Part shown: piece by piece, positions 949 to 62,621 of the stretch
How the letters are laid out: each line of letters opens with the position of its first letter
Position numbering within the stretch: the stretch's first letter is position 1
Assembly (NCBI RefSeq): GCF_000247995.1
Contig: NZ_BAFE01000030.1
Location: 1-64,000, forward strand
Direction of reading: 5' to 3'
DNA: 64,000 nt
DNA from: Mobilicoccus pelagius NBRC 104925
GTDB taxonomy: Bacteria > Actinomycetota > Actinomycetes > Actinomycetales > Dermatophilaceae
The notes under the pieces: model-generated
Databases searched by the model: none
Told to the model about the DNA's origin: nothing
Seen by the model: the letters and a program-made list of their open reading frames with translations, nothing else
Program-made: the position numbers and the translations under genes

Positions 949-1064
949 AGGGGCAGCCGCTGCAGGGTCCCGGGCCTTCCCCGGTGATCTCCCAGGCGGG
1001 GACGAGGAGGGGCACCTACCGTCGGCTCCGGGACCGGAGGATCCGGCCCGCGAACGGGGGCCCG

Positions 1065-1557
1065 ATGACCGAGACAGCCGAGACAGCCGAGACAGCCGGC
1101 GGCGCCCCGGAACACGTCGCACGAGACGCCTCCTCGCCGCAGCTCTGGCCGTCTGCACCGCCGTCCTCGTCACGACCACGGGGGTATGGGCGGTACGCGG
1201 CCTGTCACGGGCGATGACGACCGCACGGCTGCAGCATCACTGGGGCTTCCCGCTCGACGGTGGCTCGCTCGTCGCGCATGCCGAGGAGAAGGGTGCGTTC
1301 GGCGACGGGGTCGGCGTCACCGTCTACGCCTTCCCCTGGGAGATCCCCCCGGCGCCGACGCGCGCCGTGCCCGCGCGGTCGTCACGGCCGAGGAGGTCGT
1401 GGAGCAGGTCCGGAGGTCGATCCCCGACGCCCCCGCCTCCCCGCCGGGCACGTGTCGACTCGTCGTGTCCGACGACCGCGGTCACCTCGTCGTCTGCCTC
1501 CACGAGGACGCCCCCGGCGGGCCGAGCCGCGTCGTGCTCTACGAGACCGTCGTCTGA
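1065..1557 (+). pseudogene. Small membrane-anchored protein of unknown function, disrupted by two apparent frameshifts
   Basis: Coding signal moves through three frames. An ATG at 1065 opens MTETAETAETAGGAP (three copies of a 9-base repeat). After the C run at 1105-1108 the sense continues in another frame: basic residues, then a hydrophobic segment LLAAALAVCTAVLV and about 55 residues. After the C run at 1345-1350 it moves again, to a soluble C-terminal part ending CLHEDAPGGPSRVVLYETVV. Adding one C at each run restores one frame of 165 codons that ends at the TGA at 1557. The restored protein would have a short cytoplasmic tail, one membrane anchor and an outer domain of about 120 residues. 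I do not recognise the family. The pattern suits either under-called homopolymers in the sequence or a real decaying gene. Confidence 0.5.
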
Positions 1558-1575
1558 AGGGCATGAGCCCGGAGT

Positions 1576-1605
1576 GGGCCGCGGCGGAAAGACCCGTCGC
1601 GGCCC
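1576..1605. terminator. Bidirectional hairpin terminator between converging genes
   Basis: A 12-bp stem (1576-1587 with 1594-1605, one G-T pair) closes a 6-base loop, AAAGAC. It lies between the stop of the small plus-strand gene and the stop of dnaE, where a shared terminator is expected. There is no long T run, as is common in GC-rich actinobacteria. Confidence 0.6.
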
Positions 1606-1609
1606 GCGC

Positions 1610-4600
1610 TCAGGCGAGGCAGGAGGCGCCGAGGAGGGCCTTGAGGTCACCGAAGAGCGCGGGTGAGGCCGTGACGCGGAGGTTGTCGTCGAGCCTCATG
1701 ACGACGCTGCGGCCCGGCTGGGTGAGACGCAGGTGCACCTCGGTGGCGCCCGGGTGCTCGTGCAGGACGCTCTTCAGCTTGAGCGCGAGACCGTTCGTCG
1801 CCCGCGCCGCCGGCATCGACAGCACCACCGGGCCGCGCGGACCCTCGGAGATGTCGGGCAGCGTGAGCTCCTGGGCGTAGATCGACACCTGGTCCTCACG
1901 CCGGTTGATGCGCCCCCGCACCGCGCACACCGTGTCGGTCGAGAGCATCGTGCTCACCGTCATGTACGTGCTCGGGAAGAACAGGCACTCCACCGCACCC
2001 TCGAGGTCCTCCACCGTGACGATCGCCCACAGGTCGCCCTTCTTCGTGCGTTTGAGCTGCAGACCCGTGATGAGACCCGCGATCGTCACCGTCGCCCCGT
2101 CGGCACGGCCGCCCTCCTCCACCGACGCCGACACCGACGCGATCGACGTGTCGCTGTGCTGGGCGAGGATGTGCTCGATGCCGAACAACGGGTGGTCCGA
2201 GACGTAGAGACCGAGCATCTCCCGCTCGTACGTGAGCAGGGTGTGCTTGTCCCACTCCTGCGGCGGGATCGGCGGCAACCCGTCGAGCCCGCCCGTGGCG
2301 TCGTCGTCCTCGTCGTCCCCGAAGCCGAACGCCCCGAAGAGGGAGTCCTGCCCGATCGCCTCCTTGCGCTTGATGTCGACGAGGGCGTCGACGTAGCTCT
2401 CGTGCACCCGCACGAGACCGGCGCGCGGGTGGCCGAGGGAGTCGAACGCGCCCGCCTTGACGAGCGACTCGATCGTGCGCTTGTTGCACACGACGGCCGG
2501 CACCTTGGAGAGGAAGTCGGAGAAGCTCGCGAACTCCCCCTTCTCCTCGCGCGCGGCGACGATCGCGTCCACGACGTTCTGTCCGACGTTGCGGATCGCG
2601 GCCATGCCGAACCGGATGTCCTCGCCGACGGCGGCGAACCGGCCGATCGAGGAGTTCACGTCGGGCGGCAGCACCTTGATGCGCATGTGACGGCACTCGT
2701 TGAGGTACAGCGCCGACTTGTCCTTGTCGTCGCCGACGCTCGTGAGGAGTGCCGCCATGTACTCGGCCGGGTAGTTCGCCTTGAGGTAGCCCGTCCAGTA
2801 GGAGACGAGACCGTAGGCCGCCGTGTGCGCCTTGTTGAACGCGTAGTCGGAGAACGGGACGAGGACGTCCCACAGGGCCTTGACGCTCGCCGAGGAGAAC
2901 CCGTTGTCGAGCATGCCCCTCTCGAAGTCGACGAACTGGGCGTCGAGGACCTCGCGCTTCTTCTTGCCCATGGCGCGGCGGAGCAGGTCGGCGTTGCCGA
3001 GGGTGTACCCGGCAAGCTTCTGCGCGATCTCCATGACCTGCTCCTGGTAGATGACCAGGCCATAGGTCGTGCCGAGGATCGGGTCCAGCGCGTCGATCAT
3101 CTTCTGCTCGAGCTTGCCCTCGAGCCGCGGGTCGAGCGGGACGATCTCCTGCCGACCGTTCTTGCGGAGCGCGAAGTTCGTGTGCGCGTCGACACCCATC
3201 GGACCCGGGCGGTAGAGCGCGAGAGCCGCGGAGATGTCCTCGAAGTTGTCCGGCTGCATGAGCCGCAGCAACGCGCGCATGCCGCCGCCGTCGAGCTGGA
3301 ACACCCCGAGGGTGTCGCCCCGCTGGAGCAGCTCGTACGTCTTGGGGTCGGTGAGGTCCTTGGACAGGGCGTCGAGGTCGATCTCCTCACCCCGGTTGAG
3401 GCGCACGTTGTCGATCGCGTCGTCGAGGATCGTGAGGTTGCGCAGGCCGAGGAAGTCCATCTTGACGAGCCCGAGCGTCTCGCACGTCGGGTAGTCGAAC
3501 TGCGTGATGACCTGCCCGTCCTGCTCGCGCCGCATGATCGGGATGACGTCGATGAGCGGCTCGCTGCTCATGATGACGCCGGCGGCGTGCACGCCCCACT
3601 GACGCTTGAGGCCCTCCAGGCCGAGCGCGGTCTTGACGATCTCCTGCGCCTGCGGGTCCTCGTCGTGCATCGCGCGGAAGTCGACGGCCTCGGCGTACCG
3701 CTTGTGCTCCGGGTCGAACACGCCGGAGAGCGGGATGCCCTTGCCCATGACGTCCGGCGGCATCGCCTTCGTGAGCTTCTCGCCCATCGCGAAGGGGAAG
3801 CCCATGACGCGGCTCGCGTCCTTGAGGGCCTGCTTGGCCTTGATCGTGCCGTACGTGACGATCTGCGCCACGCGCTCCTCGCCGTACTTCTCCGTGACGT
3901 ACTTGATGACCTCGCCGCGCCGACGCTCGTCGAAGTCGACGTCGAAGTCGGGCATCGACTTGCGCTCGGGGTTGAGGAACCGCTCGAAGATGAGGCCGTG
4001 CGGGATGGGGTCCAGATCGGTGATCTTCATCGCGTACGCGCACATCGACCCCGCACCCGAGCCACGGCCCGGCCCGACACGGATGCCCTGCGACTTGGCC
4101 CAGTTGATGAAGTCGGCGACGACGAGGAAGTACCCCGGGTAGCCCTTGCCGATGATGACCTCGGCCTCGTACTCGGCCTGCTTGCGGGCGTAGTCGGGGA
4201 CACCCTCGGGGAACCGCTGGTGCAGCCCCGTCTCGACCTCCTTGAGGAACCAGCTCGTCTCGTCCTCCCCCGGCGGGCAGGGGAAGCGCGGCATGTAGCG
4301 GCCCTCGCCCTCCACGAAGTCGATGTTGCAGCGCTCGGCGATGAGGAGGGTGTTGTCGCAGGCCTCGGGGAGCTCACGCCACAGGTGACGCATCTCCTGG
4401 GGGCTCTTGAGGTAGAAGTCGTCGGCGTCGAACTTGAACCGGCCCGGGTCCATGAGCGTCGACCCCGACTGGACGCAGAGCAGCGCGGCGTGCGCCTTCG
4501 CGTCCTCCGGGCGCGTGTAGTGAAGGTCGTTCGACGCGACGAGCGGGAGCCGGAGCTCCTTGGCGAGCCGCAGGAGGTCCTTCTGCACGCGGCGCTCGAT

Positions 4601-59569: not shown

Positions 59570-60424
59570 TTACGACTGCTCGGCTCGCGTGTCGCGCGGC
59601 ACCGACCAGACGCCGACGGCCTCCTGATCGGCGGCCAAGGGATCGGCCACCCGCACCGGAGTCTCGAGCAGCGGGCCTTGCGCGAGCCGCGTCACCATGG
59701 GTGGTGACGGCGGGGTCAACGCGGCGGCGGTTCGCAGCGCGGTCAGGACGTCGTCGGGGCGTACGGCCGGTGTGGTGTGCCGTACGACCATCTGCAGTAT
59801 CGCACAGGGCACCTCCACGGGCCCCTCCTCGACCGTGGACTGCGTGTTCATCGGAGCCCCGCCGGCGAGACCGGCACCTGCGTCGTCGCCGGTCACGGCG
59901 ACGTCGAGGACGGCCTCCCGGACGTCAAAGGTGCGGGGGCCCTTCTTGAAGGTGCGGGTGACGAGCGCCTCGTCGAGGGCGAGGAACCGTTCGACCGCGG
60001 CCTGCACCTCCATACGGGCCGCCCCGGGGAGTTCGACGCGCCAGAGGCTCCCCTCGAGGGAGTCGGCGAGCGCGCCGGCCTCGGCCTCGGCGACGTGGAG
60101 GACGTCGTAGCCGTGCGGGAGCGCCTCGTCGAGGGCGACGCGCACCGCTTCGGGGTCGAGACGCTCGACGACGCCGATCTCGACGTACTCGGCCTCGCTC
60201 GCCGTCCCCGTGGGTGCGGCGTTCGCGTAACTGATCTTGGGGTGGGGGTGGAACCCGGAGGAGTACGCCATCGGCACACCGGCCCGGCGGACGGCCCGCT
60301 CGAGCGCGCGCTGGAAGTCGCGGGTCGAGCTGAACCGCAGCCGTCCACGCTTGGCGTAGCGGATGCGGAGCTTCTGTACCGCGGGAACGGCGGGCGGGCC
60401 TTCGGGAACACGCTGGCGAGACAT
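59570..60424 (-). CDS. TIGR03936/DUF2344 radical SAM-associated protein
   Basis: 284 residues. The conserved start KLRIRYAKRGRLRFSSTRDFQRALERAVRRAGVPMAYSSGFHPHPKISYA is diagnostic (quoted as RLRFSSTRDFQRALERA and GFHPHPKISYA). The family normally sits next to, or is fused with, a TIGR03960 radical SAM protein and upstream of rne; a role in RNA or tRNA modification is suspected but unproven. Here the partner gene is 2.3 kb away at the right edge. Confidence 0.9.
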   Translation of the reverse strand: MSRQRVPEGPPAVPAVQKLRIRYAKRGRLRFSSTRDFQRALERAVRRAGVPMAYSSGFHPHPKISYANAAPTGTASEAEYVEIGVVERLDPEAVRVALDEALPHGYDVLHVAEAEAGALADSLEGSLWRVELPGAARMEVQAAVERFLALDEALVTRTFKKGPRTFDVREAVLDVAVTGDDAGAGLAGGAPMNTQSTVEEGPVEVPCAILQMVVRHTTPAVRPDDVLTALRTAAALTPPSPPMVTRLAQGPLLETPVRVADPLAADQEAVGVWSVPRDTRAEQS

Positions 60425-60659
60425 TGCACGAAGGGTACCCGCAGCGCGTCACCGCACGATCACACGTGACGTTCCCCCGGCCTCTGCGCGACGGACGGCC
60501 CACCCCGACCGTCGCCCACGGCACACGAACGTCCGGGTGGTCGAGGTGGCAGGTCGCACCCCACCCGCCCGGGAACGGGCCGATCACATACCGGAGGATG
60601 AGGAGGAATGAGCCCGCAGACGGATGTGGGAGGACGTGCCCGGGCGGGAGGGTGGATCC

Positions 60660-61385
60660 ATGAGCATCCAGAGCCCCCTCGCCGCACCCGGTGTCGTCGT
60701 CGCGCAGGACCTGCGACTCGTCCAGGACGGCCGGGAGGTGCTGGGCGGAGCGGATCTCACGATCGCTCCCGGCGAGAGCGTCGCCGTCCTCGGGAGGGGT
60801 GAGGACGGCGCGACCGCGCGGATGCTCGGTCGGGTCGTCGCGGGGCTCGCGCTCCCCGCCGCGGGATGGATCCACCGCGGCGGCGACGACCTCACCCGGC
60901 TCTCCGACTAGCGGCGCAGCGCACTCCGCCGCCGCGAGGTCGGGGTGGCCCTCGGTGACGGCGTCCTGCCCGAGCTGCCCGTCCTCGAGAACGTCGCCCT
61001 CCCGCTGCTCCTCGACGGCCTCCCCCATCGGCGCGCCGTCGCCCACGCCGCCGACCTCCTCGACGAGATCGGCCTCAGCGGTCTCGGCGCCCGGCGCCCC
61101 GCCGACCTGCGGCCCCGCGACCGCGTCCTCGTCGCCGTCGGCCGGGCCCTCGTCACCGAGCCACACCTCGTCGTCGCCGCCGACCCGACCCCGGAGCTCG
61201 GCGAGGCAGTAGGAGCGGACGTCCTCGACGTCCTCCTCGGCCGTTGCGCCCACACCGGGGCGGCCCTCCTCCTCACCACCGAGGTGGGGGCGAGCGCCGC
61301 CCGGTGCACCCGCCGCGTCGAGATCTGCGACGGCCGCCTCGTGCGCCACCCCGAGGTGCACTACGCGACGCAGGCCCTCCTGTGA
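60660..61385 (+). pseudogene. Eroded FtsE/LolD-like ABC ATPase with in-frame amber stop
   Basis: From the ATG at 60660 (GGAGGG seven bases ahead) the frame reads an ABC ATPase-like protein to a TAG at 60909-60911, then goes on in the same frame without a break to the TGA at 61383-61385, 241 codons in all. The order of segments is that of an FtsE-type ATPase, but the motifs are lost: Walker A reads GRGEDGAT (Lys gone), the signature region is PADLRPRDRVLVAVGRAL instead of LSGGQ, and Walker B reads LVVAADPT instead of LLADEPT. It overlaps the following permease by 4 bases (GTGA). Codon use on both sides of the TAG is normal for this genome. Likely a dead ATPase; readthrough or a sequence error at TAG is possible. 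Confidence 0.75.
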
Positions 61386-61999
61386 GAGCCGCGATCCGCC
61401 TCTGGTGGCTCATGCGTTCGACGTGCGGCCGACGGCACGACGTCACCGTCGGCGGGCCGTTCGGGCTCTTCACGTGGGTGGCGCTCACGTGCGGGGGCCT
61501 CCTCACGGTTGCCCGGGGACCGGCCACGCTCGACGTGCCGCGGATCGGTGCGCTCCTCGCACTCGGCGCGGCCCTGACGCTCATGGGCGTGTGGTGCACC
61601 CGCACGCTCCTCCGTCCCGCGCCGGACGAGCACCTGCGCGTGCTCCGGGCGACCGGGGCGTCCCGGCACCAGGCCGCCGTCGTCGCCGCCCTCGACGTCG
61701 CCGAGTCCGCTGTGCCCGGAGTGCTCGCCGGTGTCGCCTGCGGCGTGGGGCTCGCCTGGCTCCTCCACCTGATCGGTGCCGACGTCGTCCCCCCGCTCAG
61801 GTTTTTCGTGCTCACCGGCGTCGCCCTCTGCGCCCTCCTCGCGGCCACGGTCGCCCGCCGGCTCGACGCGACGGACCGCCCCGACGACGAGACCGGCCTC
61901 GACGACCACATGCGCGGACCCGCCGGTCTCACCGACGCCCCGGACGTGCGCATACACCGCGTGAGGCCCACGCCGGAACCGCACGACGCACGTCCTTGA
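61382..61999 (+). CDS. FtsX-like ABC permease half, partner of the eroded ATPase
   Basis: 205 residues from a GTG at 61382 inside the ATPase stop. Four membrane helices are predicted. LRVLRATGASRHQAAVVAALDVAESAVPGVLAGVACG matches the FtsX-like permease core (LRATGASRxQ motif). It is much shorter than typical permeases of 400-800 residues: only one helix bundle and no extracytoplasmic domain are visible. The C-terminal 40 residues are polar. With its ATPase partner broken, transport is unlikely; it could still be made as a membrane protein. Confidence 0.6.
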   Translation: MRAAIRLWWLMRSTCGRRHDVTVGGPFGLFTWVALTCGGLLTVARGPATLDVPRIGALLALGAALTLMGVWCTRTLLRPAPDEHLRVLRATGASRHQAAVVAALDVAESAVPGVLAGVACGVGLAWLLHLIGADVVPPLRFFVLTGVALCALLAATVARRLDATDRPDDETGLDDHMRGPAGLTDAPDVRIHRVRPTPEPHDARP

Positions 62000-62066
62000 A
62001 CACGCCCGTCCGCGAACTCGGCCACCCGGGCGCGACGTCCCACGGGGCCCCAGGGGCAGGTGGAGG

Positions 62067-62105
62067 CCCCGCGCCTCCCGCGCCGGCGCACCCTCAGGCG
62101 CGGGG
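62067..62105. terminator. Hairpin between converging genes
   Basis: Perfect 10-bp stem CCCCGCGCCT (62067-62076) with AGGCGCGGGG (62096-62105), with a smaller CGCCGGCG palindrome in the loop. It lies after the permease gene and overlaps the last codons of the hemerythrin-like gene. Confidence 0.55.
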
Positions 62106-62621
62106 GCTGCTCCAGGCGGCCTCGCCCTGTTCCTTCCACAGCGGCCCGTCGAGGCGGGCGACGGCGGCGGTGCGGAGGCGCTCGCAGCGGTCCCAGTCGG
62201 CCTGGTCGAGGGCGACCGCCGCGGCCGGGAAGAGACCGTTCTCCTCATGGTCGATGTGCTCGAGCAGGACGTCGAACTCGGCGAGCAACGGCGCGAAGTC
62301 GATATCGGCGTACCGGTCGGCATCGGCGAGCGCGAGGAGGTCGTCGATGACGGCGTCGAGGGCGTCGTGCTCGTCGTAGAGGGTGCCGGCCTTCTCCTCG
62401 TACTCCTCGAAGCGTGTCATCGAGAGGTAGAGACCCCCCTCCTCGACGGAGTTGTGCACGGTGAAGTACCGGACGAGCTGACGGACGAGGTCGACGGCCT
62501 CCTCCCGCCGATCGGCCTCGACGTGGCCGCGGATGTGGCGGCACAGGTTGCGGATCTCGAAGTGGTCGTCCATGAGCGCCCCGATGGGCTCGATCTCGTG
62601 ACAGCCGCAGTACTGGCACAT
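62094..62621 (-). CDS. Hemerythrin-like cation-binding domain protein
   Basis: 175 residues from the ATG at 62621. The N-terminus MCQYCGCHEI carries a CxxCxC cluster. A four-helix HHE domain follows, with metal-ligand-type His and Glu in MDDHFEIRNLCRHIRGH, VHNSVEEGGLY, YDEHDALDAV and LEHIDHEENGLFP. Such proteins bind a di-iron centre and sense oxygen or nitric oxide or take part in iron repair. The ending Trp-Ser-Ser-Pro is short and polar. It stands alone between the ABC remnant and the radical SAM gene. Confidence 0.88.
   Translation of the reverse strand: MCQYCGCHEIEPIGALMDDHFEIRNLCRHIRGHVEADRREEAVDLVRQLVRYFTVHNSVEEGGLYLSMTRFEEYEEKAGTLYDEHDALDAVIDDLLALADADRYADIDFAPLLAEFDVLLEHIDHEENGLFPAAAVALDQADWDRCERLRTAAVARLDGPLWKEQGEAAWSSPRA

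Follow-up and report, generated by a model that had tools for sequence, protein, structure and literature searches.

Within a 64,000-nucleotide stretch of the Mobilicoccus pelagius genome (hereafter the window), two overlapping genes appear, judging by their sequences, to encode an inherited pseudo-ATPase, pA, paired with a half-permease, pP (Table 1). Our preferred reading, to which we assign a probability of about one half, is that pA and pP formed a regulatory or scaffolding module that was orphaned by the loss of an active partner and is starting to decay. A sequence-only reading of the locus had described a 241-codon frame interrupted by a single TAG, free of frameshifts and coupled through GTGA to a short FtsX-like permease. 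These observations were borne out: no further stop is met on read-through, the GTG of pP overlaps the pA stop, and the pA genes of three genomes stay in one frame throughout, only three single-codon indels apart. That reading had missed that pP corresponds to the N-terminal half of a longer permease and that both relatives carrying the pair also possess an intact paralogous pair, iA/iP.

Table 1. Coordinates of the pA/pP pair, its altered motifs and its neighbours in the window.
Feature	Positions	Strand	Remarks
TIGR03936 family protein, divergent neighbour marking the syntenic slot	59573-60424	-	
Conserved upstream element, 42 nt	60587-60628	+	32-73 nt 5' of the pA start
pA pseudo-ATPase frame	60660-61385	+	241 codons, open except for TAG; stop TGA 61383-61385
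pA former Walker A	60792-60818	+	GRGEDGATA here; GPSGSGKT in intact copies
In-frame amber codon, pA residue 84	60909-60911	+	Ser in both orthologues
Possible reinitiation site in pA	60936-60947	+	GAGG, 5-nt spacer, in-frame GTG
pA former Q-loop Gln position (column 99)	60954-60956	+	Gly here; G/D/D across the trio; Q in intact homologues
pA former signature motif	61107-61121	+	LRPRD here; LSDRD and LSERD in orthologues; LSGGQ when intact
pA former Walker B	61167-61184	+	Catalytic Glu to Asp in 3/3; preceding Asp to Ala here only
pA former H-loop His position (column 208)	61281-61283	+	Glu here; E/A/A across the trio; H in intact homologues
GTGA stop/start overlap coupling pA to pP	61382-61385	+	Identical overlap in both orthologues
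pP short FtsX-domain permease	61382-61999	+	Start GTG 61382, stop TGA 61997-61999
Hemerythrin-domain protein, downstream neighbour	62097-62618	-	Intact pair lies just past the hemerythrin gene in relatives

The case for lost catalysis comes from a comparison of the three pA proteins with 12 intact homologues over 209 columns. The intact homologues share 106 invariant columns; the pA trio loses 38 of these in all three members and keeps 48 in all three, the remaining 20 being retained in some members and lost in others. Missing from every pA are the A-loop Tyr, Walker A Lys, Q-loop Gln, signature GGQ, catalytic Glu and H-loop His. Besides the Lys, the preceding P, S, G and S of Walker A, invariant in the 12 intact homologues, are gone from all three, and the first Gly is retained. 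The earlier description of Walker A, signature and Walker B as altered is therefore upheld against the intact homologues, except that loss of the Walker B Asp is confined to M. pelagius; both orthologues keep this Asp as well as the LS of the signature (LSDRD, LSERD). None of the three proteins carries the residue set of an ABC ATPase (Walker A Lys, Q-loop Gln, LSGGQ, Glu and His) and, with these key residues lost in all three, we do not class pA as one. What we find, catalytic residues gone from all three orthologues of a protein that, within the limits of the tests below, is still under selection, matches the definition of a pseudoenzyme. Because both stop-free relatives lack the same key residues, catalysis was lost before the stop arose.

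Among the retained columns are L89-R90-R91 and the stretch LPELP..N.ALPL that follows the Q-loop, both of which we take to belong to the surface facing the permease. Walker A, the D-loop and the H-loop are invariant within the trio at 6 of 24 positions, compared with 125 of 215 elsewhere (P = 0.002); when the signature and Walker B are added to the set, the figures become 16 of 39 and 115 of 200 (P = 0.08), so that a faster drift of the old ATP pocket than of the rest of pA depends on the loops chosen.

Family models place the read-through pA just inside the ABC ATPases: PF00005 (ABC_tran) matches it at 27.9-28.1 bits against a cut-off of 25, and the orthologues reach 47.5 and 48.6 bits. No PF00005 match was obtained for the two fragments flanking the TAG when each was scored by itself. 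The C-terminal piece, which was the one scanned with NCBIfam, scores 57.7 bits with the FtsE equivalog TIGR02673, far from its cut-off of 264.85, and is matched better by the LolD and YbbA models. Of the proposed FtsE/FtsX-like identity, then, the ABC/FtsX kinship stands and FtsE in particular does not; the nearest named ATPases are of the LolD/YbbA type, together with a domain of Rv1281c. AlphaFold2 modelled the read-through pA with a mean pLDDT of 88.2 and a pTM of 0.87, from a 6-row alignment that included intact homologues. The top Foldseek match of this model is YbbA (9ge6_B; TM 0.83/0.89); normalised by target, TM values reach 0.91, and YbbA, LolD, BceA, MacB and FtsE are among the best matches. 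Thus, pA is predicted to adopt the fold of a nucleotide-binding domain (NBD) whose nearest counterparts in the PDB are YbbA and LolD.

The permease pP scores slightly under the PF02687 (FtsX) cut-off (24.1 versus 25.5 bits), as does one of its orthologues (23.7); the other orthologue and the intact paralogue iP itself each score 25.5. It has several hydrophobic stretches and a variable tail, and aligns with the N-terminal half of the 436-aa iP. Its structure prediction is of low confidence (pLDDT 54), and its hydropathy peaks are lower in M. pelagius than in the relatives. Its C-terminal tail, which is hydrophilic and some 38 residues long (window 61883-61999), has no counterpart in the first relative, G001, and a short, unlike one in the second, G002.

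The pair was sought by profile searches in 186 genomes of the family, among them M. pelagius (G000) and three other genomes of the genus (G001, G002 and G003). G001 and G002 carry stop-free copies of pA and pP with the same GTGA overlap, in the corresponding slot immediately downstream of the divergent TIGR03936 gene. In G003 the TIGR03936 gene, a YbaK-like gene and the hemerythrin gene stand in a row with no pA/pP pair there, and the pair was not found in the other 182 family genomes searched. Among the matches listed, the pA profile (E cut-off 1e-32) gave 427-459 bits for the trio and at most 195 bits for anything else, and the pP profile gave 276-293 and at most 29 bits; these whole-genome searches scored a subset of the initial candidates, namely 18 per genome for pP and 15 per genome for pA. 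Some pP-profile match at E up to 0.001 was present in 35 of the 186 genomes, always below 29 bits outside the trio. Each of the 15 loci of other homologues that we inspected, representing 12 distinct genes, has Walker A and the signature motif. Among the genomes searched, the pseudo-transporter pair is restricted to this genus. A weak pP match in G003 reads like an oligopeptide-type permease and has a different neighbourhood; another weak match lies in genome G050, and a scan of named genomes with pP produced, among the matches listed, a single weak one, in Paraburkholderia.

Two further observations concern G003. Its nearest intact ABC pair adjoins an apparent response regulator and histidine kinase, as read from the open reading frames (locus L047, contig C146, 5214-9056), a neighbourhood which suggests a possible link of this ABC family to two-component sensing. 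Near the locus (L186, within 1061-4000, contig C67), an apparent membrane-protein gene is interrupted by a few unread bases, which appear as X in translation.

In G001 and G002, an active NBD, iA, and the 436-aa permease iP are encoded past the YbaK-like and hemerythrin genes, 1476 nt and 1459 nt from pP, respectively (L045 9822-11860; L046, minus strand). The iA protein retains all motifs, and the NBDs of the paralogous pairs are 43-49% identical. iA/iP was not found in the M. pelagius genome, where the best-matching permease is 31% identical and encoded elsewhere; in the window, the hemerythrin and TIGR03960 genes are less than 130 nt apart. M. pelagius thus seems to lack iA/iP, and we infer loss rather than original absence. 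A gene with a YbaK/tRNA-editing domain lies 3' of pP in G001 and G002 (L045 8502-8990; L046 8385-8873) and is missing from the corresponding interval of the window (61999-62094); its loss may have accompanied that of the intact ABC pair.

The origin of the pair is indicated by genomes of another genus. In G062 and G066, the slot taken here by pA/pP, next to a divergent TIGR03936 gene, is filled by an intact pair; in G058 the intact pair lies beside YbaK and TIGR03960, with no TIGR03936 within the 7 kb looked at. As intact pairs occupy the slot in G062 and G066, the slot beside TIGR03936 is old, and the most likely origin of pA/pP is duplication of an ordinary ABC pair followed by alteration in situ. 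In the trees, the pA proteins and the pP proteins each form one clade with support of 100/100, and long branches (1.03 + 0.46 for pA and 1.52 + 2.14 for pP, midpoint root) join these clades to the remaining sequences; the M. pelagius pP row was itself flagged as long.

Upstream of the pair, the 42-nt element ranks first among ungapped matches between the intergenic regions for each of the three genome pairs. In each, none of 200 resampled pairs reached its score, narrowly so for G000-G002 (17.6 versus a maximum of 16.2). The element is conserved in all three genomes, and the remaining spacer between TIGR03936 and pA aligns poorly. Its core, GGATGAGNNNGAATNRGC, occurs once in each of G000, G001 and G002 with zero mismatches, always at this position. 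An inverted repeat seen by eye in G001 is not common to the other two genomes and was set aside, and no Rfam family was found in 60300-62100, element included, at E up to 1. The element is probably a promoter or operator of the pair; if a promoter, it may be one of unusual type.

The evidence for constraint comes from three orthologues. On the M. pelagius branch, a codon model rejected omega = 1 for pA after the stop (2ΔlnL = 13.5) and for pP (2ΔlnL = 17.9), but not for the 83 pA codons before the stop (2ΔlnL = 1.05). Synonymous sites were saturated and branch bounds were reached, which makes the omega values rough and merely supporting; because of this saturation, we place the weight on protein branch lengths, indels and a membrane-column test. 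An excess of change before the stop, hinted at by the codon model, was discarded on the counts (7/83 versus 15/156, P = 0.82). After the stop, pA has 15 lineage-specific changes in M. pelagius, compared with 16 and 13 in the relatives, and its protein branch lengths (0.24/0.26/0.22 for G000/G001/G002) reveal no speed-up here. The controls gave 0.12/0.12/0.11 for TIGR03936 and 0.14/0.17/0.19 for hemerythrin (TIGR03960, with two rows, was left out as a rate control). If neutral change were 5, 10 or 20 times faster than change under constraint, which are assumed factors giving rough bounds, the neutral share of the pA branch would be at most about 9, 4 or 2%.

The permease behaved differently, with branch lengths of 0.75/0.39/0.17 and 44 lineage-only changes here versus 20 and 9 in the relatives (Poisson P ~4e-10 against the mean of the two, a crude figure that ignores tree shape). 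Its 60 membrane-like columns include 27 that differ here from both relatives, none of which has turned polar or charged; neutral simulation at similar divergence predicts a mean of 4.2 polar changes (P = 0.010), and the test weakens to P = 0.03 to 0.125 at lower assumed divergence. By these measures pP has evolved two to four times faster here yet stayed membrane-like. Since pA after the stop is unloosened while pP is accelerated, the stop is probably not the cause of the pP acceleration. Loss of the active iA/iP would be the obvious earlier candidate, and the speed-up could also be adaptive.

Given that pA shows no extra protein change in M. pelagius, the stop is very recent, tolerated, or an assembly error. 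We screened 44 window intervals homologous to open reading frames in the syntenic DNA of the two relatives. Seven contained stops in the raw match, and on inspection the six other than pA reflected alignment edges, sequence before a gene start, gaps, or antisense or non-gene frames, leaving pA, in what is partly a judgement, as the sole clean internal stop. Of the options put forward in the sequence-only reading, the orthologues, which are stop-free and lack the same residues, favour a stop newly acquired by a homologue that had already lost catalysis; the new job that it attached to the protein is deduced from constraint and would be putative.

An incorrect base call or assembly, or an uncommon variant in the isolate that was sequenced, would leave the gene open as it is in the relatives. 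The uninterrupted copies in both relatives that have pA, the lack of any other lesion or rate increase in pA and the draft state of the assembly (96 contigs) are all consistent with this explanation. However, the absence of a second clean in-frame stop from the 44 intervals indicates that such lesions or errors are uncommon nearby, and we consider an error doubtful.

Alternatively, the stop could be tolerated. Reinitiation at GTG 60945 would yield an 83-residue N-terminal and a 146-residue C-terminal piece, keep the coupling to the permease and let the pair work as a split gene. The GAGG, 5-nt spacer and GTG lie just past the stop, with 33 nt from the stop to the GTG and a 146-aa open reading frame running to 61385. 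Neither the GAGG nor the GTG is found at that place in the two orthologues, and in nine comparison frames a comparable site falls within the next 12 codons for 96 of 3142 codons (~3%). The unloosened state of pA after the stop, by the codon model and by the change counts, the still membrane-like pP and the preserved upstream element are likewise compatible with a working split gene. On the other hand, the site was found after the fact, its codons are also constrained as protein sequence (RRR-D/E-VG), and a very recent stop would equally predict an unloosened downstream part; we judge reinitiation unlikely.

Long-running decay of a dead duplicate, functionless since its motifs were lost, is improbable. 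The missing key catalytic residues, the halved permease, the long inner branches in both trees and the stop in one of three genomes would all fit it. Yet two of the three copies are wholly open, with single-codon indels only, the GTGA coupling, upstream element and conserved interface columns are kept, and omega = 1 is rejected for pP and for pA after the stop. Neither orthologue combines intact Walker motifs with random frameshifts, the pattern that the sequence-only reading had named as the mark of plain decay. Programmed TAG readthrough to full-length pA, also raised there, is highly improbable: the frame is open with conserved sequence on both sides of the TAG, but the stop is missing from both orthologues, none of the 45 tRNA genes has a CUA anticodon, TAG also closes ordinary genes (it ends 2 of the 31 conserved intervals in the window, with 19615-20493 left out as antisense to a stronger match), and no RNA family was found in the region at E up to 1.

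Under the preferred reading of an orphaned regulatory or scaffolding module, an ordinary ABC pair iA/iP would have been duplicated; in the order of events that we infer, the copy beside TIGR03936 lost its catalytic residues to become pA, and the permease was shortened to its first half to become pP. The reading frame, the coupling, the upstream element and the presumed contact surface between NBD and permease were retained. Unable to power transport, pA/pP would act as a docking module to hold, tune or restrain the adjacent iA/iP, docking with iA/iP or sharing its regulation. In M. pelagius, iA/iP would have been lost before the stop arose; the orphaned pP would then have changed fast, and the nonsense mutation in pA would be the first disabling lesion of a pair losing its purpose. 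Several points stand against this reading: long silencing by the stop should have loosened the downstream part of pA, and no loosening is seen; in the relatives the Walker B Asp and the signature LS are still present; and the small number of orthologues, the saturated codon model, the loop-dependent pocket comparison, the divergence-dependent membrane test, the lowered hydropathy peaks of pP and its possibly adaptive acceleration also count against it. The more specific proposal that the dead pair assembles with its own active paralogue to restrain or gate it, and begins dying once that partner is lost, we put forward only tentatively.

Known systems share some of these features. As in LolD/YbbA/MacB-type (type VII) ABC ATPases with FtsX-domain permeases, pA has the corresponding predicted fold, pP an FtsX domain near the cut-off, and the genes overlap; in contrast, pA is without the key catalytic residues and pP is half the length of its own paralogue's permease. 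Degenerate NBDs and pseudoenzymes are themselves known kinds. According to PMC7756269, each ABC site combines the Walker A of one subunit with the signature of the other, and Pdr5 has one site altered in all motifs (Walker A Lys, Walker B Glu, H-loop His) that is still functionally important; its changes are spread over both NBDs, and the other composite site is canonical. Set against that account, pA differs in being a separate subunit that alone has lost both Walker A and signature. A putative pA/iA dimer would consequently contain no canonical ATP site, so that pA does not fit a degenerate composite site with a canonical partner, and the lack of a canonical site in any pA-containing dimer argues for a role in restraint or scaffolding over one in asymmetric catalysis. 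FtsEX, as described in PMC11627006, is an ABC pair that transmits signals rather than moving substrate and uses the ATPase activity of FtsE, an activity that pA, from its sequence, would be expected to lack. In the accessible portions of the open-access literature, we found no description of a stand-alone NBD lacking both site halves that is kept in three genomes of one genus together with a halved permease.

Degenerate nucleotide sites in ABC proteins normally lie opposite a working site. If the preferred reading is true, an ABC scaffold can be retained for something other than ATP use, and an ABC transporter may come under the built-in control of its own dead copy. The missing iA/iP in M. 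pelagius would then constitute a natural test of the dead pair's dependence on its live paralogue.
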